Shown: positions 1,505-24,094 of the stretch, one piece after another | Numbering within the stretch: the stretch's first letter is position 1 | Layout: every line of letters begins with the position of its first letter | From: a virus | Virus record (IMG/VR): IMGVR_UViG_3300006736_000079 | Span: 1-26,153 of that record | Reading direction: 5' to 3' (one strand) | DNA length: 26,153 nucleotides | Notes under the pieces: model-generated | Databases searched by the model: none | The model's input: the letters and a program-made list of their open reading frames with translations, nothing else | Told to the model about the DNA's origin: nothing | Position numbers and translations under genes: made by a program

Positions 1505-1849
1505 ATGGATAATCTACTGGATCAATTCCGGTCACGGGATGGGATAGCCCCGATGATTAATCGGCTCAATGCGGCGCAACGGTTTCTCATCAGCGTGGGC
1601 AACCACTACGAGCCCCACGCTGACCAGATACAGGTGCGCACCATCGCACCGAAAATCTCTGGGCCGGAGTGCCCGGAAATCAAACACATCGGATATAAGG
1701 GCATCGGGGACGAGTGGCTGCCATACTGCCAACTCAATGACACGGTATGTGAGCTGGAAAAAGGCCGTAGTTGCCCAACTTGGGATGAAATCCAGAACGA
1801 GTGGATGGAGGATGTGTCCCGGGAACAGAAAAGGGAGAGGGGGGTATAA
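1505..1849 (+). CDS. Hypothetical protein with four cysteines, 114 aa
   Basis: The start at 1505 is chosen for AGGAGG at 1495-1500; the in-frame ATG at 1445 lies inside the previous gene and lacks a site. I do not recognise the family. The N-terminal 35 residues look helical. The middle carries C56, C75, C82 and C90 around a Trp/Tyr-rich segment (DEWLPYCQ), which could hold a metal ion. The C-terminus is a charged helix. The stop TAA at 1847-1849 shares its last base with the ATG of the Rad52-like gene at 1849 (TAATG), so the two are probably translated together. Its partner gene suggests a recombination accessory role, but that is only context. Confidence 0.75.
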   Translation: MDNLLDQFRSRDGIAPMINRLNAAQRFLISVGNHYEPHADQIQVRTIAPKISGPECPEIKHIGYKGIGDEWLPYCQLNDTVCELEKGRSCPTWDEIQNEWMEDVSREQKRERGV

Positions 1850-2589
1850 TGGATATAAAAATAATACCTCCGGAAATGAGGGATGCACTCAGGGAGTCGT
1901 TTCCCACAGAGGCTATAGCAGAATATCCCAGCAAACCGTATCTCACTACAATAAAGGCCATGTGGGTGATAGAGCGGTTGAATACGGTGTTCGGAATAGG
2001 TGGCTGGACGTTGACTCACGAGATCATCAGTGATACTGATGATTATGTCACGGTCAGGGGCAGGCTGGTCCTGATAAATCATGGATTTACAACGCCCGAC
2101 CAGTATGGTGGGCATCAGAAGTCCGGCACTGGCACTGAGCCAGCGGACGGCTATAAGTCAGCGGTGACTGATTGCCTGAGCAAATGTGCCTCGTTGATCG
2201 AGATAGGGGTTGATGTATTCAAAGGGTTGGTTCAGCCCCCTAAACCCCCGGAACGCCGAGCCACTCGGCTCCATACAGAGGCATCCCCACCCCCCAGCCA
2301 GAAAACAGGTGGGGCTACCACTGCCACACAGGGCAGGCACTGGTGCGAGGAACACCAAACAGAGTGGTTCCAGCGAGGTCGGATGAAGGGGCACGCTCAC
2401 CCGATAGCCGATGGGGGCGGGAAGTGGTGTAATATGCCCGAAGATCACGAGGATAAGGATTGGATTGAGATCACTGATGCTGATGCGAAGGGCAGGGCAG
2501 AGCCAGCCCATATATCCCCGGTTCAAACTGGCCAGCAAATCTACGAGGCAGACGAACTGCCCCTGATTAAGGGAGATGAACATGAATAG
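1849..2589 (+). CDS. Rad52/DdrA-like single-strand annealing protein, 246 aa
   Basis: The ATG at 1849 overlaps the previous stop. Residues 1-127 match the Rad52_Rad22/DdrA type of phage annealing protein. Features are an IPPEM start, the YPSKPYLTTIKAMWVIERLN segment (26-45), the YGGHQKSGTG motif at 86-95, and the conserved helix around YKSAVTDCLSKCAS (102-115) ending in GVDVFKG. Such proteins form rings that anneal complementary single strands for replication-linked recombination. A Pro-rich linker (130-155) leads to a small Cys/His module with WCEEH at 165-169 and WCNMP at 193-197, possibly a zinc site. The acidic tail (EADELPL) may contact a single-strand-binding protein. No partner 5'-3' exonuclease is obvious, although the VRR-NUC nuclease at 4061 is in the same arm. 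Confidence 0.85.
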   Translation: MDIKIIPPEMRDALRESFPTEAIAEYPSKPYLTTIKAMWVIERLNTVFGIGGWTLTHEIISDTDDYVTVRGRLVLINHGFTTPDQYGGHQKSGTGTEPADGYKSAVTDCLSKCASLIEIGVDVFKGLVQPPKPPERRATRLHTEASPPPSQKTGGATTATQGRHWCEEHQTEWFQRGRMKGHAHPIADGGGKWCNMPEDHEDKDWIEITDADAKGRAEPAHISPVQTGQQIYEADELPLIKGDEHE

Positions 2590-2788
2590 GAAGGCACTAT
2601 CCATTAAGGAGGTAGGGGAATGTCTGAGCATTTCAAGGCCCACGGTTCTGAGGCTGAAGGAACAAGGTTTGCTGCCGTTCTTTCGTGTGGGGAAGCGGTG
2701 GCGACTGATGCCAAAGGATTTGGAACTCTTTGTATTGTCGAACACGGTAGGATGTATTCAGCCCGAAGACAAAGTCATGAGGGGGTGA
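2582..2788 (+). CDS. Excisionase-type (HTH_17, MerR-like) DNA-binding protein, 68 aa
   Basis: The start at 2582 is preferred because AGGGAG (2569-2574) is 7 nt upstream; the ATG at 2576 is too close to it. The protein has a winged HTH typical of excisionase-family domains: LSIKEVGECLSISRPTVLRL, then a turn, a wing around FFRVGKRWRL, and a final helix (PKDLELFV). These small proteins bend DNA in excision complexes or act as repressors or activators. With no integrase in view, regulation is more likely. It overlaps the end of the annealing gene by 8 nt. It is a reasonable but untested candidate to bind the palindromes at 76 and 3025 or the repeat array at 3051. Confidence 0.85.
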   Translation: MNRKALSIKEVGECLSISRPTVLRLKEQGLLPFFRVGKRWRLMPKDLELFVLSNTVGCIQPEDKVMRG

Positions 2789-2792
2789 ATTT

Positions 2793-3020
2793 ATGTCAGC
2801 TTTCAGCATCTGGCCGATAGAGTACATCTCCGTCCATGAGGACGAGGTGAATCTAAACCTGGCCGAGAAAGACCACCTCGATGCCTGGCGTAGCTGGAAA
2901 GAATCGCAAACGCCACCACCACGGCCATTGGCAGACAGGGAACTCTGGAGAGCAATATCTCACCAGGGCAGGGAGATTGCCACCCTTAAAAAACAACGGC
3001 AGAGGAGCGAAGCTTGGTAA
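2793..3020 (+). CDS. Hypothetical small protein, 75 aa
   Basis: GAGGGGGTG at 2779-2787 precedes the ATG at 2793. I do not recognise the protein. It starts with a hydrophobic stretch around Trp7, continues with an acidic helix (EDEVNLNLAEKDHLDAW), has a short run of prolines near residues 40-45, and ends in a basic helix (TLKKQRQRSEAW). There is no membrane segment or metal site. It is the last gene before the intergenic region with the second palindrome and the repeat array, with the palindrome beginning 4 bp after its stop. Confidence 0.65.
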   Translation: MSAFSIWPIEYISVHEDEVNLNLAEKDHLDAWRSWKESQTPPPRPLADRELWRAISHQGREIATLKKQRQRSEAW

Positions 3021-3024
3021 TTAG

Positions 3025-3044
3025 GTTGTTGTTTAAACAACAAC
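3025..3044. promoter_or_regulatory. 20-bp perfect palindrome, copy 2 (putative operator)
   Basis: This is identical to the palindrome at 76-95. It lies 4 bp after the stop at 3018-3020 and 6 bp before the GTCAYT array. The arrangement (stop, palindrome, repeats, ATPase start) suggests a control region or replication origin. Confidence 0.6.
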
Positions 3045-3050
3045 AACGCC

Positions 3051-3125
3051 GTCATTTAGCTGTCACTAGCTTGTCATTAGGTTGACACTGAGGTCACTGG
3101 GGTCACTGGGGTCACTGGGGTCATT
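3051..3125. repeat. Phased GTCAYT direct-repeat array (candidate origin iterons or operator cluster)
   Basis: Eight hexamers start at 3051, 3062, 3073, 3084, 3093, 3102, 3111 and 3120. Seven are GTCATT or GTCACT; the one at 3084 is GACACT. Spacing is 11, 11, 11, then 9, 9, 9, 9 bp, and the units at 3093, 3102 and 3111 are identical 9-mers (GTCACTGGG). An AT-rich stretch follows (about 3121-3135, containing TATTAT). With the palindrome on the left and a replication-type ATPase on the right, this fits an iteron origin, but multiple operator sites upstream of that gene would look the same. Confidence 0.6.
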
Positions 3126-3144
3126 TATTATCTTAGAGGTGAGT

Positions 3145-4038
3145 ATGTACGAAGAGGTGGAAATCCCCAAGGAGACTACGCGAAGGGAAATCGAGGAGTG
3201 CGTGGTCGCTCTTGAAAAATTTACCCGGTCGGAGATTGATAAGGAACTGAAAATATTCTCGCGGAGAGGGAAGAAATACAGGTCAGGGATTCTTGCCGAA
3301 CTCGTAGAGAAGAATATATTGGCGAGGGATGGGGACAGGTATCGAGTCCTGCAACTCGCAGACCAGGAAATCGACTGGCAAAATGCGAATGTGGACGATA
3401 CTCTGGATATCAAATGGCCGTTACGGCTACACGACTGGATCAGGCTGTATCCAAAGTCAGTCGCTGTGGTAGCAGGCTCACCGGGTGCTGGTAAAACAGC
3501 GTTCCTTTACAACTTCATTTTGCTGAATCTGGAGCGGGATGATATTATCCTCTGGACGAATGACATGGAGGCAGAGGAAATGCAGGAACGCTTCATCGCA
3601 TTCCAGACTCCCCTGCCCGTACCTGCACCGTGGAAAACGTACCGGAGATACGCTGACTTTGGCGATGCGATTAAAAAATACCCGGATGCAATCCATATCA
3701 TCGACTACCTGAGTATGCAGGAAAACTTCTGGGCTGCCGGAACAGAACTGGCAAAAATCGATGAGGCACTCGGTAGAGGGATGGCACTGGTTGCTATCCA
3801 GAAAAAGCCACAACAAAAACTTGGGGTAGGGGGTGTCCATACAGCGATGAAACCTAAACTCTACCTGTCAATGGAAACCATTGCAGTCAACGGTAGTAAA
3901 ATGGGACAATTAACAATCGAAAAGTCTAGGTCGAAGGCCTCTCCCACCCTAGAACCCAACGGTGTACGGTGGACATATAATATAGATAACGGAGCACGAT
4001 TTACCAATGTCCAGCGACAGGACAGGGGACATGAGTAA
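3145..4038 (+). CDS. RecA/DnaB-like P-loop ATPase, probable replicative helicase or loader, 297 aa
   Basis: The start at 3145 is chosen for GAGGTGAG just upstream. The longer frame from 3082 would translate the non-coding repeats into an unlikely Ser-Leu-Gly repeat. Residues 1-70 look like a winged-helix domain (REIEECVVALEKFTRSEIDK, then a short wing around RDGDRYRVLQ). The RecA-like core has Walker A GSPGAGKT at 111-118, a probable Walker B strand ending in IHIIDYLS (183-190), and a Gln/Lys sensor segment (AIQKKPQQ, 217-224). Such compact ATPases act as replicative helicases or helicase loaders in small phages and plasmids. The position directly after the repeat array supports a replication role. 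It is shorter than DnaB and lacks a DnaB-type N-terminal domain. Confidence 0.8.
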   Translation: MYEEVEIPKETTRREIEECVVALEKFTRSEIDKELKIFSRRGKKYRSGILAELVEKNILARDGDRYRVLQLADQEIDWQNANVDDTLDIKWPLRLHDWIRLYPKSVAVVAGSPGAGKTAFLYNFILLNLERDDIILWTNDMEAEEMQERFIAFQTPLPVPAPWKTYRRYADFGDAIKKYPDAIHIIDYLSMQENFWAAGTELAKIDEALGRGMALVAIQKKPQQKLGVGGVHTAMKPKLYLSMETIAVNGSKMGQLTIEKSRSKASPTLEPNGVRWTYNIDNGARFTNVQRQDRGHE

Positions 4039-4060
4039 ATCAATCAAGGGGGAATGCAAA

Positions 4061-4405
4061 ATGTCTGAGAGAGAGCTACAGGGCAGGACAATAGAGCTGG
4101 CACGGCTCTGCGGTTATTATGTTTACCATACGCATGATTCTCGCAGGAGCGAGCCGGGGTTTCCCGACATGATTGCGGTGCATGAATCCCGGCCGGTAGC
4201 TATAGTGGCTGAATTCAAGAGCGAAACGGGGAAATTAACCAAGGGCTGCACAGACCAGAGAGGACGGTATCACCCCGGCCAAGCTGACTGGCTACGCAGG
4301 TGGCATGATATCTCCACTAATCCTGAGAGCAGAATATACACCCGGCTGTGGAGGCCGGGACACACGGACGAGATAGAGGATATGCTCACGCAGGGGGGGC
4401 GATGA
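4061..4405 (+). CDS. VRR-NUC family nuclease, 114 aa
   Basis: The start at 4061 is preferred because AAGGGGG at 4046-4052 is 8 nt upstream. ATG 4031 overlaps the previous stop and is a less likely alternative. The protein is a compact PD-(D/E)xK nuclease of the VRR-NUC type, with GFPDMIAV at 33-40 (D36), EFK at 51-53 and the QADWLRRW helix at 74-81. Stand-alone VRR-NUC proteins of this size are common in phages and are thought to cut branched or structured DNA. Next to an annealing protein and a helicase-like ATPase, a role in resolving replication or recombination intermediates is likely. All expected catalytic residues appear present. Confidence 0.88.
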   Translation: MSERELQGRTIELARLCGYYVYHTHDSRRSEPGFPDMIAVHESRPVAIVAEFKSETGKLTKGCTDQRGRYHPGQADWLRRWHDISTNPESRIYTRLWRPGHTDEIEDMLTQGGR

Positions 4406-4686: not shown

Positions 4687-4895
4687 AACAGATCGGATAT
4701 ATTGAGAGTTGCCACAAGTCCGGGCGTCAGCCGGGGGAGATAATGGCATTGGGGCAACTCAAGGTAGACAGGAAATTTATGGCAGACTGGTTGCAGGCTG
4801 ACTGCGACTGTGATGAGGGAGTGGCCATATTACGGGCTCATTGCTCTCAGTGCCGGCTGGGAATGATTGAGTATCTTGTGGGAAGGGAGACATGA
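4683..4895 (+). CDS. Small Cys-rich protein, 70 aa
   Basis: The ATG at 4683 overlaps the previous stop (ATGA) and follows AAGGGGGG. Cysteines at 10, 41, 43, 54 and 57 include a CDC motif and a C-x2-C knuckle (CSQC) with a nearby histidine, consistent with a small zinc-binding fold. I do not recognise the family. It is one of several small Cys-pair proteins in this arm and is followed by another ATGA-coupled gene. Confidence 0.7.
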   Translation: MKQIGYIESCHKSGRQPGEIMALGQLKVDRKFMADWLQADCDCDEGVAILRAHCSQCRLGMIEYLVGRET

Positions 4896-5011
4896 GAATG
4901 CCTGAACGCATCGCCTGGATAGCCATATTGCCTGTATTCATCACCGGCATTATAGCACTGGGCTACGGATTATACAGGATAGTTAGATGGCTGGTTAGCC
5001 TGATTCCATGA
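4892..5011 (+). CDS. Single-pass small membrane protein, 39 aa
   Basis: An ATG at 4892 overlaps the stop of the preceding gene (ATGA), with GGAAGGGAG just upstream. It opens a 39-codon frame ending with TGA at 5009-5011. The product has a short charged N-terminus (MRMPER), one hydrophobic helix of about 20 residues (WIAILPVFITGIIALGYGLY), then an amphipathic Arg/Trp tail. Coupling, ribosome-binding site and membrane-like composition together argue that it is real although very short. Its role is unknown: membrane anchoring of an early complex, superinfection exclusion and an accessory lysis function are all possible. Confidence 0.6.
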   Translation: MRMPERIAWIAILPVFITGIIALGYGLYRIVRWLVSLIP

Positions 5012-5050
5012 TAACCGCCAGCCATCATGCGATAGAGCGGAGGTATAACT

Positions 5051-6064
5051 ATGGGAAGCAAACCATCAATCAAGGGTCAGAAGGTTATAGAATATCTGGA
5101 AAAATATCCTACCCTGCCTACCAGAACACTAGCCCGGATGGTATACGAAAACTGGGGCAACCTGTACAAGGATTTGGAGGATGCCCGGGCTATTGTTAAT
5201 TACTATAGGGGAACTTATGGGAATGCTAAACGAGAGTCTCTTGCCGATAACAGGTTCATGCTGCCGGAGGCTACAGAAACCAACACCTTTTCCCTGCCAC
5301 AACCCGCGCGGTATGACTGGACAAACTACCACATACCCAGAGAATTAACCAGGGGCGTTATACTGGGCGATATCCACATCCCCTATCATGACCGGAAGGT
5401 GCTGCAAGTTATTATGGAACATACCCAATGGTTCGGGGCAGACTATATAGTGTTAAATGGTGACATTATGGATTGCTACAGGCTCTCCAAATTCCTGAAA
5501 GACCCGTCCAAGGCATACATGAGGGATGAGGTGGATACTACCCGGCAGTTTCTCACCGTCCTGCGTGTATGCTTTCCAGACGCACATATCGTCTATAAAT
5601 TCGGCAACCATGATGACCGGATGTACAACTACCTGATGGACAAGGCACCGGAGCTATGGGACAAGGACGATAGCGTCATGGAGGTGGAGAACAGGCTGGG
5701 AATCCCAGACTTGGGTATTGAAACAGTAGGAGAAAAGCGTAGAATCTTTGCTGGTAAGCTGGCAGTACTGCATGGTCACGAGTTCTGGCAGAGTATTAAC
5801 AGGCAGGTTAACCCTGCAAGGGGCTTGTTCCAGAAAACTTTCTCCTCGGCAGTATGCAGTCACCTGCATCAGACATCAGAGCATTCAGAACCTAATATCA
5901 AGGACGAACTAATTACCACCTGGAGCTTGGGCTGTTGTTCTCAATTACACCCGGAGTATATGCCTATTAACAAATGGAATCATGGGTTTGCCACTATGGA
6001 GAAAACGCCCGGGGGAAACTTTAAACTGAAGAACTACAGAATCATAGACGGCGAGATGGTGTAG
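5051..6064 (+). CDS. Calcineurin-like metallophosphoesterase, 337 aa
   Basis: GGAGGT at 5040-5045 supports the ATG at 5051. The first 50 residues look like a helix-turn-helix (QKVIEYLEKYPTLPTRTLAR). The metallophosphoesterase core carries GDIH at 106-109, NGDIMD at 136-141, GNHDDR at 185-190, HGHE at 241-244 and SHLHQ at 270-274, so the two-metal site appears complete. Phage enzymes of this family hydrolyse phosphodiesters or phosphomonoesters; possible substrates are DNA ends, RNA or cyclic nucleotides. The N-terminal DNA-binding-like segment favours a nucleic acid substrate. Placement with recombination genes is compatible with nuclease activity, but a role against host nucleotide signalling cannot be excluded. 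Confidence 0.88.
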   Translation: MGSKPSIKGQKVIEYLEKYPTLPTRTLARMVYENWGNLYKDLEDARAIVNYYRGTYGNAKRESLADNRFMLPEATETNTFSLPQPARYDWTNYHIPRELTRGVILGDIHIPYHDRKVLQVIMEHTQWFGADYIVLNGDIMDCYRLSKFLKDPSKAYMRDEVDTTRQFLTVLRVCFPDAHIVYKFGNHDDRMYNYLMDKAPELWDKDDSVMEVENRLGIPDLGIETVGEKRRIFAGKLAVLHGHEFWQSINRQVNPARGLFQKTFSSAVCSHLHQTSEHSEPNIKDELITTWSLGCCSQLHPEYMPINKWNHGFATMEKTPGGNFKLKNYRIIDGEMV

Positions 6065-6594: not shown

Positions 6595-6938
6595 AACATA
6601 ATGAGGACGAGAAACTGCATTGCCCCATCTGCGATGGTACGCAGCTGGATGGCGGTCAATCTATTGAGAATATTATCACAGAGATATCTTCAACGCGAAC
6701 TAGCATCCTAAAGAAACTTGGGGATATAAACGGGATGCTGTCTCCCTTGAGGAAACGGCACCAGGAAATCATGTCATTGCACCCCAGTTGTGCTGCCTGC
6801 AGCATATTGATTGGGGCAGGGCATGTAGAGCAACATGCCGTGGAATATCAGGAACAGAGTTATTGCCCCAGCTGTGCAGCAGCCGCAGCTAAACGGGACA
6901 AACATGAGGAGGGAACTAAATGCGAAGAATCGGATTAG
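6585..6938 (+). CDS. Small protein with three Cys-x2-Cys knuckles and a coiled coil, 117 aa
   Basis: The start at 6585 is chosen for GGGGGAAG at 6571-6578; the in-frame ATG at 6495 lies inside the previous gene. Knuckles are CPIC at 13-16, CAAC at 69-72 and CPSC at 94-97. Between the first two is a helical segment with a heptad-like pattern (about residues 28-62), so two zinc sites may flank a coiled coil, possibly for dimerisation. The C-terminus is charged. Layouts of this kind occur in small phage regulators and nucleic-acid-binding proteins, but no family can be named. The gene overlaps both neighbours slightly. Confidence 0.7.
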   Translation: MRIEHNEDEKLHCPICDGTQLDGGQSIENIITEISSTRTSILKKLGDINGMLSPLRKRHQEIMSLHPSCAACSILIGAGHVEQHAVEYQEQSYCPSCAAAAAKRDKHEEGTKCEESD

Positions 6939-7207
6939 CAGACCTACAGGAACTGGTGGTGTCGGATGCTGCGGAGACAGCTCTAGAGGCCCAGAGAGCT
7001 TCATCCCGGCGACATGGGATATTGGCATTCGACTGCTTTAATACTATGGTCGTAGGACGGCGAGTGTATTGTCCTGTGGCCGAGGTCAGGCATGGTGGTT
7101 TTCAGGCAGGGGCTGCCGATGGGTCTCTGCCGGATATCAAAGTCCTGAAAGGTTATCGATTCTCAGAGTGCCAGGGTTGCGACCGGTACGATGGAGATGA
7201 CCCGTGA
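6920..7207 (+). CDS. Hypothetical protein, 95 aa, last rightward gene
   Basis: GAGGAGGG just upstream supports the ATG at 6920, which overlaps the end of the preceding gene by 19 nt. I do not recognise the protein. The N-terminal 30 residues are helical (LADLQELVVSDAAETALEAQ). The middle is beta-like with C39 and C51, and the end contains an ECQGC knuckle (C84-x2-C87), so zinc binding is possible. It ends at 7207, five bases before the stop codon of the leftward arm, with no clear terminator between them. Confidence 0.65.
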   Translation: MRRIGLADLQELVVSDAAETALEAQRASSRRHGILAFDCFNTMVVGRRVYCPVAEVRHGGFQAGAADGSLPDIKVLKGYRFSECQGCDRYDGDDP

Positions 7208-7212
7208 AGTCT

Positions 7213-7398
7213 CTAAGGAATAGAACTCCTGCCAATAATACCTTCTACTATCACAGCTGCAAAAATCAGGCACAGCATTGCTAGCACAGCATAGATAAGT
7301 TTATCGTGCCACTTCAGTTTGCTCATTATATGATTGCTGACAAAATGCTCCAGATCAGAGAGCCTTTCCTTGGTGGTGCGATTATCCCTATCTCCCAC
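7213..7398 (-). CDS. Small XhlA-like membrane protein (probable lysis accessory), 61 aa
   Basis: It starts with GTG at 7398, preceded by AAGGGGT. The N-terminal half is a charged, coiled-coil-like helix (KERLSDLEHFVSNHI). It is followed by a basic linker with Trp and a single hydrophobic helix of about 22 residues (LIYAVLAMLCLIFAAVIVEG). This layout of a short amphipathic helix plus one C-terminal membrane helix is that of XhlA-type phage lysis accessory proteins, which pair with holins. It is the last gene of the late arm, next to two other small membrane proteins, which fits. Family assignment is by architecture only. Confidence 0.65.
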   Translation of the reverse strand: MGDRDNRTTKERLSDLEHFVSNHIMSKLKWHDKLIYAVLAMLCLIFAAVIVEGIIGRSSIP

Positions 7399-7409
7399 AA
7401 TACTACCCC

Positions 7410-7571
7410 TTAATCTTTCTCGATCAGCTTATTGCTAACCGCTCCCAGGATGCCAATACACCCTGTAGCTATCTCTATGTATCCCAATTTTACAGAGTAG
7501 AGTGCCAGCCCTACTAATCCTATCACGACTATCAGAACCTGCGGCCTGACACGGGCTATCAATTCCTTCAT
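7410..7571 (-). CDS. Small membrane protein, possible holin, 53 aa
   Basis: The ATG at 7571 follows GGAGGT; longer versions of this frame lie inside the preceding gene and lack a site. A short basic N-terminus (MKELIARVR) precedes a strongly hydrophobic segment (VLIVVIGLVGLALYSV) and then a second, weaker apolar stretch (YIEIATGCIGILGAV), ending in a charged tail. One or two membrane passes are possible. Size, topology and neighbours suggest a holin or holin partner. The start overlaps the end of the upstream gene (ATGA-type, 7568-7571). Confidence 0.6.
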   Translation of the reverse strand: MKELIARVRPQVLIVVIGLVGLALYSVKLGYIEIATGCIGILGAVSNKLIEKD

Positions 7572-7819
7572 AGTAACCTCCACAGAACATAGCCCAGTAT
7601 TGCCAGCACCCCGATTACATTGCCAGCGACAGCACCATAATAATCCTTCCAGCGTCTGTCCTGGGTCCATTCATCCTCTGACCGCTGGTAAACAATAAAC
7701 AGGGCTGTCAGCCCCCACCCCAATACAGGGATAGCTGTCAGTATCCCGATGGGTATATGCAGCAGAACTCTCCCCTGAAAATCTCCTACCTTATCACGAC
7801 TATGTTTTATTATGGCCAT
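7568..7819 (-). CDS. Two-pass membrane protein, possible holin, 83 aa
   Basis: TAGGTGA lies just before the ATG at 7819. There are two apolar segments (LLHIPIGILTAIPVLGWGLT and GAVAGNVIGVLAILGYVL) separated by a charged, Trp-rich loop (QRSEDEWTQDRRWKDYY). The N-terminus is basic. Two membrane helices with a polar loop in a small late gene next to other membrane proteins is typical of phage holins. I do not recognise a specific holin family, and an unrelated membrane role is possible. Confidence 0.65.
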   Translation of the reverse strand: MAIIKHSRDKVGDFQGRVLLHIPIGILTAIPVLGWGLTALFIVYQRSEDEWTQDRRWKDYYGAVAGNVIGVLAILGYVLWRLL

Positions 7820-7827
7820 TGAATCAC

Positions 7828-8043
7828 CTAACTATTTTCGGCTTGCGGTATAACTATATCAGTGACATGACTAACGATTGCTGCCTCCTGGGCAGATGTG
7901 AGAATTATCGGAATGCCCCTCTTGGTTGACTGAGTGGGATATTCGGTGCTTGACATCTCTACCAGTGCAGTCTCTGTAATCCCTATGTCTCCAGTGAGGC
8001 TAACCTCTATTTTAACTTCCACGCTTTTTAACACCTTTGGCAT
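7828..8043 (-). CDS. Hypothetical small protein, 71 aa
   Basis: TAGGAGG upstream of the ATG at 8043 makes this a well-supported gene. The sequence starts with alternating hydrophobic residues (KVLKSVEVKIEVSLTG), suggesting beta strands, and contains no membrane helix or cysteine. The end is acidic. It sits between the tail-fibre gene and the membrane-protein cluster, so it could be a small virion protein or a fibre-associated factor. I do not recognise it. Confidence 0.65.
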   Translation of the reverse strand: MPKVLKSVEVKIEVSLTGDIGITETALVEMSSTEYPTQSTKRGIPIILTSAQEAAIVSHVTDIVIPQAENS

Positions 8044-8052
8044 AACAACCTC

Positions 8053-10752
8053 CTAACTAATTAGCAATCCTCTTTCCTCTAGCCTGTCAGCTACCTGCGG
8101 GAACTCGTCAACTATTACACCAATCAGGTTATCTATTCTGTTACGGTTCTGCTTGACACCGCCCCAACCCAAATAAATACCATTCTGGATGTTTAACATA
8201 TAGCCTGACCCTGTATCCTTTCTACTCATAACCCCAGCATCGCACAACGCACTAAAATCATTTTCCTTTACGCACATCAGGCTGAAATCATCGTAATCAT
8301 CGAACTCGCTAAATGCCCCGTCTGCCCCTAACGCACCTGCTCCCGATAGCGTCATCGCCGTGTTATCACTACCGGACAGGTGGTTGTGGAACTCCATTTT
8401 CCCGGCGTGGCTTCCATCTGTTGCATCTTCGATCTGGAGGCGAATCTCAGAGTATTCAACATCATTGAGTGCTGGGTGTTCGGTCTTGCCCTTTCCCATT
8501 ACCGACAGCAAGCTGTCGCCACCTGCCGGAGAGGCTGAATTAACATAAGCGAACAACCGGAACGCTCCTGCGCCATCGTGAGTATTCTGGAGTTTCAACC
8601 CTCTCCACTCTGCCGTAGTTGCAATATTGAAATCCCCTGAACCGGCATCAAAATTCTGGTTGTTCGTAGTTACCGTGCCGTCAAGGGTCACTGATGAAAT
8701 AGTCCCGGAGTCGATGTCCACATTAGTCATATTCTGGGAGTTGAAATTGATAGCTCCGCCAGCAGTCCACGCTGGCAGCGTCCAAGTGCCACTGGCTGTC
8801 CATGTGCCCTTCCCAACGCAGGCATTCAGGGTAGTACCACTATCCCACTCGCCTGATGTTAGGGTAGCTGTGCCATCTGAGAACGTAGTCGCAGTAACAA
8901 TAACACCTGCACCGGATGTAATGGTAAGATTGGTGTCATTGCCCTCTATCTTCTCGCCTGTTCCGAAAGTAATGCCGATATTGGCAGGAATAACAATGTC
9001 GGTGCTGGCCGTTAGATTGATAGCACCGCCACTATTAATAGTCATATCAGTGTTATCACTCTCTATCTTTTCAGCACCATCTCCGAAATGTAATCCAATA
9101 TTCACTGGCAGTACCACATCTGATGCGGCTGTTAATAATATCTCGCCACCCGAGTTAATGGTAAGGTCAGTATTATCTGATTCTATTTTTTCTGCACCGT
9201 CCCCGAAATGTAAACCTACATTAACAGGTAACACTACATCGGCACCGGCACTCAGCAGTATTTCGTTACCGGACGCTATCGTTAGGTCTGTACCGTCACT
9301 TTCAATATACTCACCGCCAGCGTCATAGAAGAAACTCTTGCCGAGTATCATGGTGTCAGTACCGGAACTCTGACTGGTCAGGGTAATGAAGGTCGTGCCG
9401 GATAACCCGCCTGACTTCAGAAGTAACGTAGTCCCGGCACCATCAACCGCTGCCAGTATGCTGCCATCAGTGAATGTCATATCACCAACGCCAGTGAAAG
9501 CCTGATCTCCACCTGCCACAGCACCAGCTAATGTGGTTGCTCCTAAAGTGCTGACGAAGCTTCCGCCTGTCATTGTTAGGGTATTTGACGAATGCGTTAG
9601 GACAACATCGCCAGCGTTGAAATTGATGGTTGCCCCGCTTGTGACAAGTAAAAGATCACTGGCACCGGCAATATCCTTTGCGACTCCTATGCCGCCATCG
9701 GTATGAATTGAACCGGTCGTACCACTAGTGGAATCTGTGGTATCATCGACTGAAACAGCCCCAGAGATAGTGAAAGCTGCGGTGAAGGTCATTACATTCC
9801 CTGCGGTGCTGGTGTTAATAACAGCCACATCAGCACTTCCGTCCGTGATACTCAAAGCATCAGCCAGGCCATTGACCAATACGATATCATTTGTTCCGGT
9901 TGTTCCTGTGAAATTCAAATCTGAATTGGCAGGAAGAACAAGCCCGCTCGCAGTAATGGATGCCTCGGCATTTCCAGCGATCTTAAACTGAAGCGTAGTT
10001 CCGCCAACAACATCTATATAGGCTGTAGTGCCATCGTGATTACCGATAGCCATGTAATCAGTTATTGGCGTAGTATTGGAGTGGATTGCCAGCTCTGGAT
10101 GTGTCCCTGCACTTCTGGCCCAGTCAGTAGCGACTGCACCAGCATCAGTAATATGAATTTGCTGGCTTGTATTCCCAACGCCTATTACAAAAGCGTGATT
10201 ACTGGCATCGCCAGTAGACCATCGCATTACCGCATCAGCACTGGCTCCCCAAGCCAGGTCAACAGCATCATTTACAGGGGCATTGGCTATAAATGCCCGT
10301 CTGTCCGTGATGGTAAAATTACTTGAGTTTGTTTCCCCGGCAGGTATGTATACCTCTGCTAGTAGTACATCGTCATCAGCCCCTATATCTGGTAGGGCGG
10401 GAGATGTCATAAGGCGAGGGGTTGTCTCGCTGGACGGTGTAGATAATGTCGGGTTGGTAATGGCAGCAGCCGTGCCAGCCACTACAGCCAGAGCCCCTGC
10501 TGACTGATCCCAAATAACAAGGTCTCGCCGCGGATTGGTAGCATTAGCTGTTCCGTGGGTAACATCAGCTCCACTTACCGCCTGTATTGAGCCGTCAAAT
10601 ACCACCGCTACTGCTACGCTGGTATTCATAGTCCCGGCAGATGCTGTGACAGCCCCACCGGATACCACTCCTATACCCATCGCCGCAGCTATTCGCGAAC
10701 CTTCCATAGCATGGAAATGTTTTTCATCGCTTATTGCTTTTGCTTGTGCCAT
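8053..10752 (-). CDS. Tail fibre or receptor-binding protein with 40-aa repeats, 899 aa
   Basis: AAGGAG precedes the ATG at 10752. The protein is long, Gly/Ser/Thr-rich, and composed of short alternating beta-strand motifs ending in polar turns, as in beta-helical phage fibres. Three near-tandem 40-residue units (positions 8941-9300) repeat the pattern EKIESDNTDLTINSGG followed by VVLPVNIGLHFG. The N-terminal 150 residues look like a virion-attachment part. The C-terminal 200 residues contain more complex sequence (EWRGLKLQNTHDGAGAFRLF onwards) and probably the receptor-binding tip. No catalytic or intramolecular-chaperone motif is evident. It is the last large gene before the lysis cluster, as is common for fibre genes. 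Confidence 0.8.
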   Translation of the reverse strand: MAQAKAISDEKHFHAMEGSRIAAAMGIGVVSGGAVTASAGTMNTSVAVAVVFDGSIQAVSGADVTHGTANATNPRRDLVIWDQSAGALAVVAGTAAAITNPTLSTPSSETTPRLMTSPALPDIGADDDVLLAEVYIPAGETNSSNFTITDRRAFIANAPVNDAVDLAWGASADAVMRWSTGDASNHAFVIGVGNTSQQIHITDAGAVATDWARSAGTHPELAIHSNTTPITDYMAIGNHDGTTAYIDVVGGTTLQFKIAGNAEASITASGLVLPANSDLNFTGTTGTNDIVLVNGLADALSITDGSADVAVINTSTAGNVMTFTAAFTISGAVSVDDTTDSTSGTTGSIHTDGGIGVAKDIAGASDLLLVTSGATINFNAGDVVLTHSSNTLTMTGGSFVSTLGATTLAGAVAGGDQAFTGVGDMTFTDGSILAAVDGAGTTLLLKSGGLSGTTFITLTSQSSGTDTMILGKSFFYDAGGEYIESDGTDLTIASGNEILLSAGADVVLPVNVGLHFGDGAEKIESDNTDLTINSGGEILLTAASDVVLPVNIGLHFGDGAEKIESDNTDMTINSGGAINLTASTDIVIPANIGITFGTGEKIEGNDTNLTITSGAGVIVTATTFSDGTATLTSGEWDSGTTLNACVGKGTWTASGTWTLPAWTAGGAINFNSQNMTNVDIDSGTISSVTLDGTVTTNNQNFDAGSGDFNIATTAEWRGLKLQNTHDGAGAFRLFAYVNSASPAGGDSLLSVMGKGKTEHPALNDVEYSEIRLQIEDATDGSHAGKMEFHNHLSGSDNTAMTLSGAGALGADGAFSEFDDYDDFSLMCVKENDFSALCDAGVMSRKDTGSGYMLNIQNGIYLGWGGVKQNRNRIDNLIGVIVDEFPQVADRLEERGLLIS
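8941..9300 (-). repeat. Three 120-bp repeats inside the tail-fibre gene
   Basis: Units 8941-9060, 9061-9180 and 9181-9300 each encode 40 residues with the same order of motifs (SDxTDxTIxSG, then xVLPVN-type, then GLHFG-type). The two units on the right side are the most alike. Nucleotide divergence is clear, so they are older duplications kept by structure, presumably successive coils of a beta-helix. Confidence 0.75.
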
Positions 10753-17887: not shown

Positions 17888-18763
17888 CTAACTTGTTGGC
17901 GTGGCTGCGTCACTCTTTATCTCATATACCCAGTTGCCAGAGCTTCTTTCGCCATAGGCATATTCATCATAATGGAACACTGATGTTCCACCGCCACCCT
18001 TCTGTGGCTCACGCCGCACCTCTGCTCTCGGCAGGAAGCCCTGCACCAGAATGATTCCCATCTTGGAAAAGACACCGCCAATGGCATCGTCTGCACTGTC
18101 GATGGTGATGTTGCCATTCTCGAAGACTTTAGAGCCTGCTATCGGCAGGTTAAAGTGTTCTTGGAACACTCTGGCAGTTGGCCCCTCAGTTACCACATAA
18201 GTGCCTACTCCGGCTACCAGCTCATCATAGATGTCCTTGATCTGGAAGCCATGCAGTACAATGTGTATTGGTTTGGGACCGGGTTCAGTTGCGTTACTGG
18301 ATATTCGGGTGCTGGCTGCTACCAGGTGCCCGCTTGTGAGCGTTGTACCCGCTCCGCACAGACTGGTAGTAGCTGCATCTAGCTGTGTAAGACCATCCTC
18401 GTCTTTCTTACGCTCCATAGCGTTCTGGGCTAATCCGCCCAGCTTGGCAAAGGACTTCTTGCTGATACGAAGTGCCACCCTGTCAGTGATAAAGGTTTGC
18501 AGACCGGTAACTGTTGGCGTTATGGTAATTGCCGAATCGGACAGCTGTTGCGGATTGTCCAGATTAGTGGTCTCCTGCACCGCCTGAGCCGTCAGCTGGG
18601 CAAGGTCTACTTCCTTCCATGCCAGCCCTGTTCCCTTTCCTAGTGTATGTTTGTCTACTAATTGAGTCATTACGCCTTCAAACTCCCGAACCTGCCTAGC
18701 AGATGCTACAACAGTATCCAGGCTGTCAGCTAATGACCCAGTGATTGTATCTCCAGTAGCCAT
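17888..18763 (-). CDS. Major capsid protein (probable HK97 fold), 291 aa
   Basis: AAGGAG precedes the ATG at 18763. It follows the scaffold-like gene and is of typical size for a phage coat protein. The N-terminal arm (ADSLDTVVASARQVREFEGV) is followed by a spine-helix-like segment (KKSFAKLGGLAQNAMERKKD), beta-rich A-domain-like sequences (IHIVLHGFQIKDIYDELVAG; VFENGNITIDSAD) and a final strand region (FSKMGIILVQGFLPRAEVRR). Sequence character and gene order are those of HK97-fold coat proteins; a specific subfamily cannot be named by eye. It would be the most abundant virion protein, and the HNH-like ORF directly downstream is an oddity of this locus. Confidence 0.82.
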   Translation of the reverse strand: MATGDTITGSLADSLDTVVASARQVREFEGVMTQLVDKHTLGKGTGLAWKEVDLAQLTAQAVQETTNLDNPQQLSDSAITITPTVTGLQTFITDRVALRISKKSFAKLGGLAQNAMERKKDEDGLTQLDAATTSLCGAGTTLTSGHLVAASTRISSNATEPGPKPIHIVLHGFQIKDIYDELVAGVGTYVVTEGPTARVFQEHFNLPIAGSKVFENGNITIDSADDAIGGVFSKMGIILVQGFLPRAEVRREPQKGGGGTSVFHYDEYAYGERSSGNWVYEIKSDAATPTS

Positions 18764-19663: not shown

Positions 19664-22600
19664 TTAAATCTCCCTATACCACTGATCGACAGCCATTGCA
19701 CCCGCCGGATTAGAACGCTTCCAGTGAACCTTGGCGTTTGATATTAACCGCTCCACCGCTATTAATTGCGGGGCCGCCCGCTTCTTGGCATTTCCTCTTA
19801 TGGTAGGCCACATATGGGGAGGTATTTCTCGCCACCTGCTATCCAGCTGCTCGTTAAGGTCTGTGACTGTTTCTTTCCATGTCTCCCGTAGCGCATGAAT
19901 TCCCTTCCAGCCCGGAGATGCAGATACCTTCTCAAAAATTGCATCCTCTATTTCCCAGAATGGCTTGATTATATTTATGAGCTCTTGGCGTTCCTCCTCT
20001 ATTGCCACAGCGCGGGGAGACAGGTCGTTAATCCAGTCGTGCTGGTTTTCACTGATATATAGCCGTTCCCCGGGGGTCTTCTCACTCAGGAATGTCTCCG
20101 CAGCAGCATGTGTCGCCCCCCAATCAATTAGACCATTATCATCGCGCTTCATCTTAGCATCTTCATAAAAGTATTCGCGGTATCCCCGAAGTGCCTTGTC
20201 GTACGGGTGGTCGTCTTCCAGCCACCTTTCGAGACCCTCCCGGCCTTCCGGGTCTATCCAATCCTTCATCATGTGTGCTGTATAAACCCCCGAAAACTTG
20301 CTAGTCATATGCTTCTTACGAAGGTCGTTATAGGTCTTCCACGATATTTCGCCGCTTTGCTTTAACTCAGCAATTTTATTCATTTCTGTTTTGAACTCGC
20401 CATCGATCTCATCCCGGACTACGGCGAAGGCTTTATCAAAATCAGAGCCTTTCTGCCTGAGCCAGACTTGGGAAACCTCTTCATTTAATGCTATTAATTC
20501 GGGGTTAGCCTTTTCCAGTGAATTCTGTTCCTGAACGGTTAAGCCCTCAGTTAAACCTAGCGGGCCATCCTTGTTCCAGTCTTTATCATAATGCTCGTTG
20601 GCCAGCTCATTTCTAAGTTCGGTTCTTTTGCCGGCCGCAGACAGGGGATGACCACGGCCTCCAACAAACTCGGTGATACCCCTCAAAGCACGCTGCGCCA
20701 TATTCCCGCCCTCAAACAATACACTGTGTATCCATATCGGCACCAAGTTTTCGGCAACCACTGTATCGGTGAGATGCCAGAGAGAGTCCCTGGAAGGCTC
20801 CCCCACATAATCCTTGCCGGTCCAGATATCTATGATAGTTTTTAGTAAAGGGGCTGACTGGGCTCTACCAGTTTGAAGTAATGGGTTCTCCTGCCATCTA
20901 GGGTCAATAAAAACCGCTAGGTCTTTATCGTCAGGGTCATCAGTGATCTGGCCGCTGACGGCACCAAGTGTCTTGGCGAACATGCCAATCACAGAGCGTA
21001 CCTTGCCACCTGGGCCAATTCTTTGGCCCGCTATAGTCCATGTGAAGAAATCTGGATTATATACCCATGTTTCGCCCTGTTGCCTCATCGGGCTCAGGTG
21101 TCTCTCAATCTCCTCCTCGGTTCTGGCTCCCAACGCTATGGACACTGCCGTACCTAGTGCTGCCAGTCCCGCCATGCCATGTGCCATAGAATCCCTTGCC
21201 AGCTTGCCACGCAAACCACCCCGCCTAACAGCCCCCTGAGCCGCATCATACAACAATGCTGTTATAGCCCTTGTGTAATTTGGTGCCAGAGCTATGGCTG
21301 TTTGTATTTGCCTCCTTCGGCCGGTCATGCCGAGTCTGGCACTGTCTGCCAAACCCCTAAACTCATTAATGAAGGCATCCAGTTCAGCAACCTGCTTGGC
21401 AGCCAAGTTAGGGTCTGCGGCGGCAGTCAGATGCTCCAGAGACTTTTTGAGTTCTATGCCAGCTACATCCAAAGATGCTTCGTAGGCTCTGGCAAAAGGT
21501 TTTAATATAACATTGGCACCCTTTCCGTATATCCTTGGAACCGCCAGTAGCGAGGTCTTCGCAGCATACCCCAGGGGACCCTGCCCCTTTTCTCTGGGGG
21601 GGCGCAACATTTTCCCGAGAGGTGTTTTGGATGCCAAAAGTCCCCCCGGCCCGGTAATGGCTTCTGTTATCTCAACTTCCGGACCGCCACCCCTTGTCAG
21701 GATCAGATTTGGGGAGCTATGTATTCTATCTGCATTTTGAGCGAGAACCCGCGCATGGAACTCAGGATCAAGCATTGCCTGTACAAACCCCTTCATGGAT
21801 TTGCCCCAGACAGCAGGTTTCCATGTTGCCAGAAACAACAATTGGATAGTTGCCGTACTTACATCGCCAGCAAGCACAAACAACCTGGCGATAGCATTAA
21901 CCTTGTTGGTTGCCGTTAGTACTGAGTTGAACTTGGTTGGCTTAAAACTCTCCACCAGAAGATCCCCCACTTCCTTAGCATCCTTTCCCATCAGAATCTT
22001 GCCCCAGAGGGCTTCAGGTGCTTCGCCATGCTTAAATCCAAACTCGCCTACCCCTACTTTACCCAAGGTTTTTGGCTTCAGCTCCCTTTTCCATACCTTG
22101 TCCAGAACGTCCACATCTGCAATCTTCTGCTTCAGCCCAGCCTGAATTCTCTGTAGTTCGCCAAATATCTCCGGGCCTTGGCGGAGCGAGAGACCATAGG
22201 GAAGTTTCTGGAGGCTAGGGATATCAGATAGAATTCTGATCGGTGTTTTAGGTCCGTGCTTTCCAGTCATATACTTATCGGCTACTTTTCCAGCCACCGA
22301 AGCTGCTTTACTCAATTGAGCTTTAAGTTGTCTAGTAGCCTCACCGACAGCTTTAGCGGTTGTCTTTTCGAGAGGAATACTTTTCCACTCTACCCCCACC
22401 AATTCTTTGGAAAGCAGATTCCCTTTAACGCCAGTGATTTCTTGCAAAGTTTCCTCTAGCCGCTTAATGGCATCCATGTCAGCTCGAGCACGTATCTTTG
22501 TAATACTAAGGAAAGAATGATTACTAACAGGCGAGAACCTGTCCCACGCCGGGAATGTTTTAGGAAGGAGTGGCGGCAGCTTCCCTTTAACGCCGGCGAA

Positions 22601-24094
22601 TTGCGGGAAATTAGCGGGTAGTGGAGACTTAAAGCTTATGCCGGGTACCAGGTTATCATCCACCTGCTTTACAAACCACTCAGTCGCCTGCTTTTCAGCA
22701 ACCTTCCGATAGGCAGCCGCTATATTTTGCCTCAGAGCCTCTTCTTCCGGAAGATATGAGAAACCTGCATTCAAGGCTTCTTCCTGTGTTGCGAACACTC
22801 TGCGTTTTTGTGCGTTCAACATCCCTGACTTAGTTGAACTGGCGGCCTTGACGAATTCGGCATCCACAATCATCATATCGTAGGTTCCGTCATCGAGAAG
22901 CTTCCCGAAAACCCTACGACCTGCGTATTCTGTAGTTTCTCCGCCCTCTGCAAAGCTGAGTTTCTTGATTGGGATGCCGTTTCTTTCCAAAAACTTTAGC
23001 TTGGCATACTCTAATTCCCGGGCCGTTTTCACCCACTTTTTCTGGGTTGCGTCAAGGAGATTCTTGTACTTACCGGGGTTGCCCCTGATATCATTAGGGG
23101 CTATTTTTGCACCCCCTTTGGTGAATTGAGGGCTTCTTAAAAAGCCTTCTTTGTCCAGGGGGCCAAACACCTTTTCCTGCCCGCCGTACTGATCGAATAT
23201 AGACATTACTGTTTTGGTTTTCTGGCGGGATTCAGCAAAAGACATCTGCTTGCCGACTATCATTTGCGCTGCCGGGGTATCTGCCAATGCCGCAGGATTA
23301 AGACCAAAACCTGTATTGCCAAGTATTTCTCTGACAAAGGGCTGCTGGGCTATCTTTCTGCCCCCATCCTTCACAAAGTTAACAGCTACCAGGTTATCAA
23401 AGGACTGCAAGTCCGGCATCTTAACAGTGGCGGAGGTAGCAATCTTTTTTAGTTTCCCAATACCGGCCTTGCCCGCGGTGAACGGGAGCATCTCCACTTT
23501 GTCTACTACATTTGCAGCCTTGTGGGCCGCAGACCCTATCTTAGCTAACCCTGCGACCTTGGGCAGCAAACTTACACCCCTAAGTGGTGCAGATATCGGG
23601 GTAAACCCCCACCAATTCTCAGCCACAAACCTCTGTATCTTACCGGTTTCCGCTAAATCCTGTCTGGCTTCGTCCATATACCCGGCTTCCCACGGTAGCT
23701 TACTTAGAAATGAGCCAGCAGCAGCACCAGCCCCGAGACGATAGGGCGTACTGGAAAGTGCCCGATGTGCAATAGGGGCCACCCACTGCCGGTTAATGTC
23801 ATCAAATCTTGCCAATGCTTCTAACGCCATCCCCCAAGGACCCTGCCCCTTTCTCTCAGAATACGGTTGCAGTGATGGGGCGGGCGGAATGCCTGGCCCG
23901 GATGGCAAGGGGACGGGTCTTGCCGGAGACTTCGGCAGACTGGCACCAGGGGCACCAGCCGCTACGTCCTCGCCACCCCTCAAACGACTAAGCACCTGAA
24001 GTATTGTTGCGGTGGGCAATTTCCCAATTTCAGCCATCGCCTGATTTTTTGGCAACTGCTTAAGCCGGGACACTAAAGAGTCTATCTCTGCCAT
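19664..24094 (-). CDS. Giant LPD38-like polyvalent or internal virion protein, 1476 aa
   Basis: This is the largest gene in the window. After a short helical start and a Gly/Pro-rich linker (about residues 45-80), most of the protein is helical and basic. Residues about 930-1150 (ALAPNYTRAITALLYDAAQG, a hydrophobic segment MAGLAALGTAVSIALGA, FFTWTIAGQRIGPGGKVRS) resemble the LPD38 domain of phage polyvalent proteins, which are thought to enter the host with the DNA. The last 300 residues are highly charged helices. A KGQGPxGxA motif occurs twice, near residues 82 and 835. In short-tailed phages similarly large helical proteins are ejected internal virion proteins, which fits the position before scaffold and coat. 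The start has a weak ribosome-binding site. Confidence 0.65.
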   Translation of the reverse strand: MAEIDSLVSRLKQLPKNQAMAEIGKLPTATILQVLSRLRGGEDVAAGAPGASLPKSPARPVPLPSGPGIPPAPSLQPYSERKGQGPWGMALEALARFDDINRQWVAPIAHRALSSTPYRLGAGAAAGSFLSKLPWEAGYMDEARQDLAETGKIQRFVAENWWGFTPISAPLRGVSLLPKVAGLAKIGSAAHKAANVVDKVEMLPFTAGKAGIGKLKKIATSATVKMPDLQSFDNLVAVNFVKDGGRKIAQQPFVREILGNTGFGLNPAALADTPAAQMIVGKQMSFAESRQKTKTVMSIFDQYGGQEKVFGPLDKEGFLRSPQFTKGGAKIAPNDIRGNPGKYKNLLDATQKKWVKTARELEYAKLKFLERNGIPIKKLSFAEGGETTEYAGRRVFGKLLDDGTYDMMIVDAEFVKAASSTKSGMLNAQKRRVFATQEEALNAGFSYLPEEEALRQNIAAAYRKVAEKQATEWFVKQVDDNLVPGISFKSPLPANFPQFAGVKGKLPPLLPKTFPAWDRFSPVSNHSFLSITKIRARADMDAIKRLEETLQEITGVKGNLLSKELVGVEWKSIPLEKTTAKAVGEATRQLKAQLSKAASVAGKVADKYMTGKHGPKTPIRILSDIPSLQKLPYGLSLRQGPEIFGELQRIQAGLKQKIADVDVLDKVWKRELKPKTLGKVGVGEFGFKHGEAPEALWGKILMGKDAKEVGDLLVESFKPTKFNSVLTATNKVNAIARLFVLAGDVSTATIQLLFLATWKPAVWGKSMKGFVQAMLDPEFHARVLAQNADRIHSSPNLILTRGGGPEVEITEAITGPGGLLASKTPLGKMLRPPREKGQGPLGYAAKTSLLAVPRIYGKGANVILKPFARAYEASLDVAGIELKKSLEHLTAAADPNLAAKQVAELDAFINEFRGLADSARLGMTGRRRQIQTAIALAPNYTRAITALLYDAAQGAVRRGGLRGKLARDSMAHGMAGLAALGTAVSIALGARTEEEIERHLSPMRQQGETWVYNPDFFTWTIAGQRIGPGGKVRSVIGMFAKTLGAVSGQITDDPDDKDLAVFIDPRWQENPLLQTGRAQSAPLLKTIIDIWTGKDYVGEPSRDSLWHLTDTVVAENLVPIWIHSVLFEGGNMAQRALRGITEFVGGRGHPLSAAGKRTELRNELANEHYDKDWNKDGPLGLTEGLTVQEQNSLEKANPELIALNEEVSQVWLRQKGSDFDKAFAVVRDEIDGEFKTEMNKIAELKQSGEISWKTYNDLRKKHMTSKFSGVYTAHMMKDWIDPEGREGLERWLEDDHPYDKALRGYREYFYEDAKMKRDDNGLIDWGATHAAAETFLSEKTPGERLYISENQHDWINDLSPRAVAIEEERQELINIIKPFWEIEDAIFEKVSASPGWKGIHALRETWKETVTDLNEQLDSRWREIPPHMWPTIRGNAKKRAAPQLIAVERLISNAKVHWKRSNPAGAMAVDQWYREI

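Follow-up and report, generated by a model that had tools for sequence, protein, structure and literature searches.

DnaB-type helicases normally require a separate initiator and a loader at duplex origins, and in plasmids, regulatory and origin roles of iterons coexist. The RSF1010 (IncQ) replicon combines a RecA-fold hexameric helicase, a dedicated primase and iterons, with RepC binding 20-bp iterons. D5/DUF927-type helicases belong to the AAA+ superfamily, and geminivirus Rep is a HUH rolling-circle Rep of ssDNA viruses, unrelated to the helicase examined below. Among the closest described systems, SaPI Rep and SCCmec Cch2 are self-loading initiator helicases whose binding domain is C-terminal and whose origin follows the gene (PMC7581432). 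The accessible part of PMC4234260 presents RepA, RepB and RepC of RSF1010 as separate polypeptides, and the origin of pRN1 ORF904 as a stem-loop without iterons. For mobile-element proteins that join an AEP Prim-Pol, a helicase and a winged helix (WH), the accessible part of the source proposes that the WH, usually C-terminal, recognises the origin (Kazlauskas 2018, PMC5862659). Geminivirus Rep, as far as the available text of PMC12548392 extends, is paired with 5-6-nt iterons upstream of Rep through a cognate, sequence-specific interaction that differs between close relatives and involves an iteron-related domain.

Here, we analyzed 26,153 nucleotides of viral DNA (the window; IMG/VR record IMGVR_UViG_3300006736_000079), in which an array of short GTCAYT repeats precedes a predicted helicase gene. 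The data indicate that this array is quite probably an iteron origin bound by the N-terminal winged-helix (wHTH) domain of its own helicase, which would then act as initiator and replicative helicase in one. Comparison with relatives strongly supports this predicted role of the array: phased arrays occur at orthologous positions in relatives, and across about 100 related helicase loci, the motif and the wHTH recognition helix change together, and the spacing stays at about one helical turn.

The window array comprises eight sites, starting at 3051, 3062, 3073, 3084, 3093, 3102, 3111 and 3120, and its gaps of 11, 11, 11, 9, 9, 9 and 9 bp reproduce the two spacing classes described in the first-pass annotation. 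That annotation had listed eight GTCAYT hexamers; starts and spacings stand, but the motif is exact in only seven of the eight, the copy at 3084 reading GACACT. Specifically, the 11-bp-phased iterons (GTCATT at 3051, GTCACT at 3062, GTCATT at 3073, GACACT at 3084; 3051..3089, plus strand) retain the hexamer alone between diverged spacers, and the 9-bp-phased iterons (GTCACT at 3093, 3102 and 3111, GTCATT at 3120; 3093..3125, plus strand) form a near-perfect tandem repeat with nearly identical spacers (TRF 96%), likely the product of a recent tandem duplication. Seven GTCAYT copies on one strand within at most 80 bp compare with a maximum of two in 300 dinucleotide shuffles of the window. The phased-repeat chain score of 13 was matched by none of 200 shuffles of the local region, and 60 shuffles of the whole window peaked at 8. 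As tandem short direct repeats that lie near a putative initiator gene and exceed chance expectation, these sites have the layout of an iteron origin. A neutral tandem or coding repeat, in which 9-bp units produced by slippage would be translated as (Leu-Gly-Ser)n if the frame began at an earlier TTG, agrees with the near-perfect 9-bp block and with its location inside an open frame from 3070. Yet the 11-bp block has kept its hexamer and little else, an equal layout recurs with unrelated motifs in the related loci L409, L406 and L220, and private motifs return in distant second clusters. We therefore regard a neutral origin of the array as highly improbable, even if slippage may have supplied the 9-bp copies.

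Direct reading also confirms a perfect palindrome beside the array, GTTGTTGTTTAAACAACAAC (3025..3044; 20 bp with a TTTAAA centre), which is a candidate operator or piece of an unwinding region. The AT-rich stretch said to follow the array is present but short, consisting by direct reading of the 10 bp TATTATCTTA (3126..3135), located past the array and ahead of the start codon; it is a possible unwinding element and, together with the TTTAAA-centred palindrome, makes up the AT-rich DNA near the array, with nothing longer. The array occupies the gap between an ORF at 2793-3020 and the helicase ATG at 3145, which is preceded by a ribosome-binding-like AGAGGTG. If the helicase starts at this ATG, the array is intergenic; an alternative TTG start at 3082 gives a longer reading that covers the 9-bp block and is not required. 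Lying upstream of the ATG, the window array departs from the lambda O type, in which the origin is within the initiator gene. A cumulative GC skew minimum, predicted near 3.1 kb, did not materialize: the skew climbs through 3.1 kb and peaks at about 7 kb, where gene orientation flips, a result of little weight and uninformative on the origin, as the skew tracks gene direction and the record is a 26-kb fragment.

The earlier placement of the array between the palindrome and a replication-type ATPase is borne out by the next gene (3145..4038, plus strand), whose 297-aa product combines a winged helix with a RecA/DnaB-fold ATPase according to PHROG, AF2 and structure matches. It matches a PHROG DnaB-like helicase at E 1e-7 and Pfam DnaB_C at E 2.3e-4, below the cut-off. 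In the AF2 model (pLDDT 92), residues 80-297 resemble RadA, T7 gp4, DnaB and KaiC with Z of 18-20, and the Walker A motif reads AGSPGAGKT. With a RecA-like fold, a Walker A motif and a family profile match, the product is a predicted helicase of the SF4 (DnaB/RepA/gp4-like) type. N-terminal to the motor, at about residues 8-68 (3166..3348, plus strand), AF2 secondary structure and PDB matches, mostly to winged-helix proteins, place a wHTH with helices at 9-22, 28-34 and 40-55 and wing strands at 59-62 and 65-68; modelled alone, the domain yields identical elements. Residues 40-55 form its recognition helix, in which the specificity positions are taken by Ser47-Gly48. Predicted with confidence, this wHTH is a candidate sequence-specific dsDNA-binding domain within the helicase polypeptide.

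The neighbouring genes for a Rad52-like annealing protein (1849..2589, plus strand; Pfam PF04098, E 2e-4, above cut-off), an HTH_17 (excisionase-like) protein (2582..2788, plus strand; Pfam E 8e-10) and a VRR-NUC-like nuclease (4031..4405, plus strand; Pfam E 0.0095, below cut-off) suit a replication/recombination module. Further upstream lies a gene for an HTH/zinc protein (1078-1473; HTH by Pfam). Elsewhere in the window, a 1476-aa minus-strand ORF (19664-24094) is found amid virion genes, and the record ends in coding tandem repeats of 12-30 bp (25997-26153), of the GKGVGTGEGD type, which belong to a minus-strand ORF cut off by the record boundary.

Conservation of the array was assessed among relatives of the helicase rather than among close strains of the window virus. 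Peptide patterns derived from the window helicase alone retrieved no close relatives in viral or genome contigs, and the plasmid collection gave no match. In the annotated phage collection, homologues occur solely in two methanogen viruses, MetMV and vir555, in which an N-terminal Prim-Pol primase is fused to the helicase. A search with an alignment that included these two proteins yielded first 61 viral loci and then 36 loci in bacterial and archaeal MAGs, whose sources include Methanoperedens, Desulfobacterota, Planctomycetota and Dehalococcoidia, as well as 80 more viral matches, the sets overlapping. The family has three architectures, namely Prim-Pol-wHTH-helicase, DnaB-N-wHTH-helicase and the stand-alone wHTH-helicase of the window. 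L338, which at 39% is the nearest relative recovered, has a GCATCAT/ATGATGC cluster farther upstream and no other array. The helicase ORF L269:3973-6636 has its TGTCTACA array 1.2 kb before the motor rather than 0.2 kb; the extra sequence, maybe an intein, looks like a large in-frame insertion separating the wHTH from the matched motor region. The capsid-like protein of the window (MCP, 17888-18763) has relatives at 36-63% identity, in whose records (up to 47 kb, many of them fragments) the window helicase and phosphoesterase are absent, which is why the array comparison covered helicase relatives. The two modules, replication and virion, seem subject to exchange.

The related contigs had been expected to carry the same array upstream of orthologous ATPase genes. 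Phased arrays were indeed found upstream of or inside these genes, but the motif is not the same and about half of the relatives lack a clear array in the searched region. Specifically, of 50 distinct loci scored blind to the motif between -450 and -120 relative to the helicase core, 25 carry, within the wHTH coding region or shortly ahead of it, a phased array unmatched by any of 200 shuffles, and scores of at least 10 were reached by 22 of the 50 helicase loci versus 23 of 1433 control windows. The arrays lie immediately 5' of the wHTH coding sequence or inside it; among loci with none in the searched region, some have one further upstream or downstream and some have none in the DNA examined. 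Motifs differ by locus (TGTCTACA, TGTCGTCA, TGACCACA, TGTCCACA, CGTCAGCA, GTCAAGCA, CGTTACA, CGTATCA, ATGGACA and more), at a per-array mean spacing of 10.16 +/- 0.23 bp. In-gene arrays, present in many primase-fused genes, overlap the codons of the first wHTH helices. Because their sites (offsets 0, 21, 31 and 41) use all three codon frames and the encoded amino acids vary with the motif, protein constraint alone cannot create them; judged by this frame usage, the repeats are DNA-level features. Moreover, 15 of 23 loci have a second cluster with their own private motif, and foreign motifs scored as high in 0 of 182 tests. These second clusters are mostly about 250 bp further upstream (around -470), sometimes inverted, with individual positions of -511 (L258), -537 (L275) and about -1076 (L241).

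These positions also bear on whether the array is an autoregulatory operator only, through which the helicase would repress its own transcription while replication starts elsewhere. The window array and palindrome lie in the very interval that separates the upstream gene from the helicase ATG, as expected of an operator, but primase-fused relatives carry their arrays about 800 bp inside the gene and in two clusters, a poor place for a promoter-operator. A scan of 2700-3300 found no sigma-70-like promoter, an outcome that says nothing should the host be archaeal or rely on promoters of another kind. We consider an operator-only function unlikely. Operator and origin roles may go together, and the array could regulate the helicase gene in the window too; given the arrays deep inside the gene in fused relatives, regulation would probably not be its main role.

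The GTCAYT pattern itself was dropped as a query for the relatives' arrays, as the motif is not conserved; exact scans for such arrays returned about 200 loci, mostly unrelated or coding repeats. GTCAYT arrays also adjoin unrelated genes in other phages, so that the motif alone is not diagnostic. In several phages (L078:12596-12692, L107:691-742 and L047:12224-12293), 9-bp-spaced GTCATT arrays overlap the final part of a conserved 133-aa gene (MYSKE...), and L078 has a nearby 407-aa ORF that is maybe a terminase; these arrays are possibly related to packaging rather than replication. A dense TGTCAC/GTGACA array in both orientations (L013:6740-6885) sits where a Toprim-AAA_25 primase-helicase gene ends (6876-8867, minus strand); this replication ATPase is unrelated, and the hexamer is very similar to that of the window. 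A GTGACC array with 10-11 bp spacing (L208:4240-4325) lies near a stand-alone AAA_25 ATPase (4692-5648), a hint that short phased iterons next to helicases of the RecA fold are not confined to the window helicase family.

In 31 loci, similar motifs go with similar recognition helices: once ATPase identity is corrected for, identity at residues 44-50 of the helix rises with motif similarity (partial Mantel r=0.48, p=2e-4), and none of four ATPase segments shows a positive association in the same loci (r from -0.16 to 0.03). Residues 15-36 correlate with the motif as well, a correlation that is not independent because their codons overlap the in-gene arrays; the codons of residues 44-50 fall beyond nearly all arrays. 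Two pairs of loci illustrate the pattern: in L228 and L240, the helicases are 92% identical, the wHTH domains 53%, and the motif is switched (TGTCTACA in L228, TGACCACA in L240), and in L256 and L274, helicases of 34% identity with helices of 75% identity have a motif common to both. On loci not used in finding the pattern, the nearest neighbour by helix predicts the motif (permutation p=3e-4) and does so better than the nearest neighbour by ATPase (p=0.01). Among these new loci, NVSIILKR or NASIILKR helices accompany TCTACA (five loci), NLSK/NFSK helices GTCGTCA (three loci) and VMALLR or NMALLR helices ACCACA (two loci). The motif contains GTC in 26 of the 32 Ser47 loci with arrays, including the window, the exceptions being a SKKLYY subgroup (ATACAA) and L003; the pairing of R47 with GTTA fell short of significance when the new loci were taken by themselves.

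Either site-by-site coevolution or joint exchange of the wHTH and its sites as one cassette could give rise to this co-variation of helix and motif; since both origins imply that the wHTH reads the sites, such reading by the helicase is likely on this comparative evidence. The same data speak to binding by another protein, be it the HTH_17 product, the HTH/zinc protein or a host initiator. The genes of the first two are situated no more than 2 kb upstream, each with an HTH product, yet the motif changes with the recognition helix of the helicase and not with its ATPase, and a host protein would not yield a private motif per virus; another binder is thus very unlikely. Of the binders put forward by the first-pass annotation, the ATPase protein is the likely one, and the HTH_17 and HTH/zinc proteins have gained no support.

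The spacing pattern recurs beyond the window. In upstream arrays of stand-alone-type loci, gaps shrink from 11 to 9 bp toward the gene with unrelated motifs, as in L409 (CGTATCA; 11, 11, 10, 10, 9, 9, 10), L406 and L401 (ATACAA; 11, 11, 11, 20, 9, 10) and L220 (ATGGACA; 11, 11, 20, 10, 9, 10, 10, 9), and more weakly in L359. Arrays in the primase/wHTH linker drift in the opposite direction, from 9 to 11-12 bp, with L258, outside the tested set, as an exception. Within-array permutation gave p=0.0007 for the upstream arrays minus the window, and p=0.0007 was likewise obtained for the linker arrays, both values being optimistic because the array classes were defined after inspection. The recurrence of the drift with unrelated motifs is the stronger argument. 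Arrays within wHTH codons mostly comprise six called sites and otherwise five; six would suit one hexameric ring.

The available data favour a model in which the eight iterons serve as sites, about one per helical turn, for the wHTH of the helicase encoded directly downstream. Through their winged helices, several subunits would dock on a single face of the DNA, and their motor domains would thereby meet next to AT-rich DNA. There, the ring would assemble or load and a strand would be opened or captured, so that unwinding and replication begin; the drift from 11 to 9 bp probably matches the pitch or curvature of the assembled complex. From the array, its placement and phasing, and its co-variation with the helix, we infer that the helicase physically binds there, is loaded and starts replication, as well as what the drift is for. 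More broadly, we lean slightly toward the view that widespread viral DnaB-fold helicases are self-sufficient origin readers, with a small wHTH before the motor, 6-8-bp iterons once per turn, sites and recognition helix that make up a swappable specificity cassette whose amino-acid-to-base code can be read, and a conserved gradient of spacing (11 to 9 upstream, 9 to 11-12 in the linker, six near-even sites in wHTH codons) that encodes assembly geometry. If the helicase carries its own origin reader, it would offer a minimal model of origin recognition and helicase loading, with L228 and L240 as a natural specificity swap for testing. Candidate origins of uncultured phages and methanogen viruses can in practice also be located this way, with the sequence as the sole input, and the in-gene arrays present a rare case in which DNA-binding sites overlap codons of the very domain that presumably binds them.

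A search of the open literature found no description of such a helicase-linked array family, weak evidence given that most subscription papers lie outside it. In RSF1010, a separate RepC binds the iterons, whereas here helicase and putative binder form one polypeptide, often fused to Prim-Pol. Ori-lambda has its initiator iterons within the initiator gene and beside an AT-rich tract, much as proposed for many relatives of the window, but lambda O is not a helicase and its iterons are 19-bp imperfect inverted repeats rather than 6-8-bp sites once per turn (PMC7466680). Short iterons upstream of the gene that vary between close relatives, presumptively cognate in the window family, are shared with geminivirus Rep, for which the available text gives no helically phased array for a DnaB-fold helicase (PMC12548392). 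AEP Prim-Pol proteins and pRN1 ORF904 resemble the window relatives in fusing Prim-Pol to a helicase and a putative origin-reading winged helix; in the accessible parts of these sources, the WH is usually C-terminal, as opposed to its position before the motor here (PMC5862659), and no iteron recognition code is described (PMC5862659, PMC4234260). SaPI Rep and Cch2, in turn, are likewise element-encoded helicases with a dsDNA-binding domain of their own, presumptive in the window family, and short repeats beside the gene (PMC7581432). Their motor is of the D5/DUF927 type, whereas that of the window family has the RecA/DnaB fold, and their C-terminal domain and downstream origin contrast with a wHTH N-terminal to the motor and sites upstream of or inside its codons. 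By analogy, the window helicase may work like SaPI Rep and Cch2 without being a member of their family.
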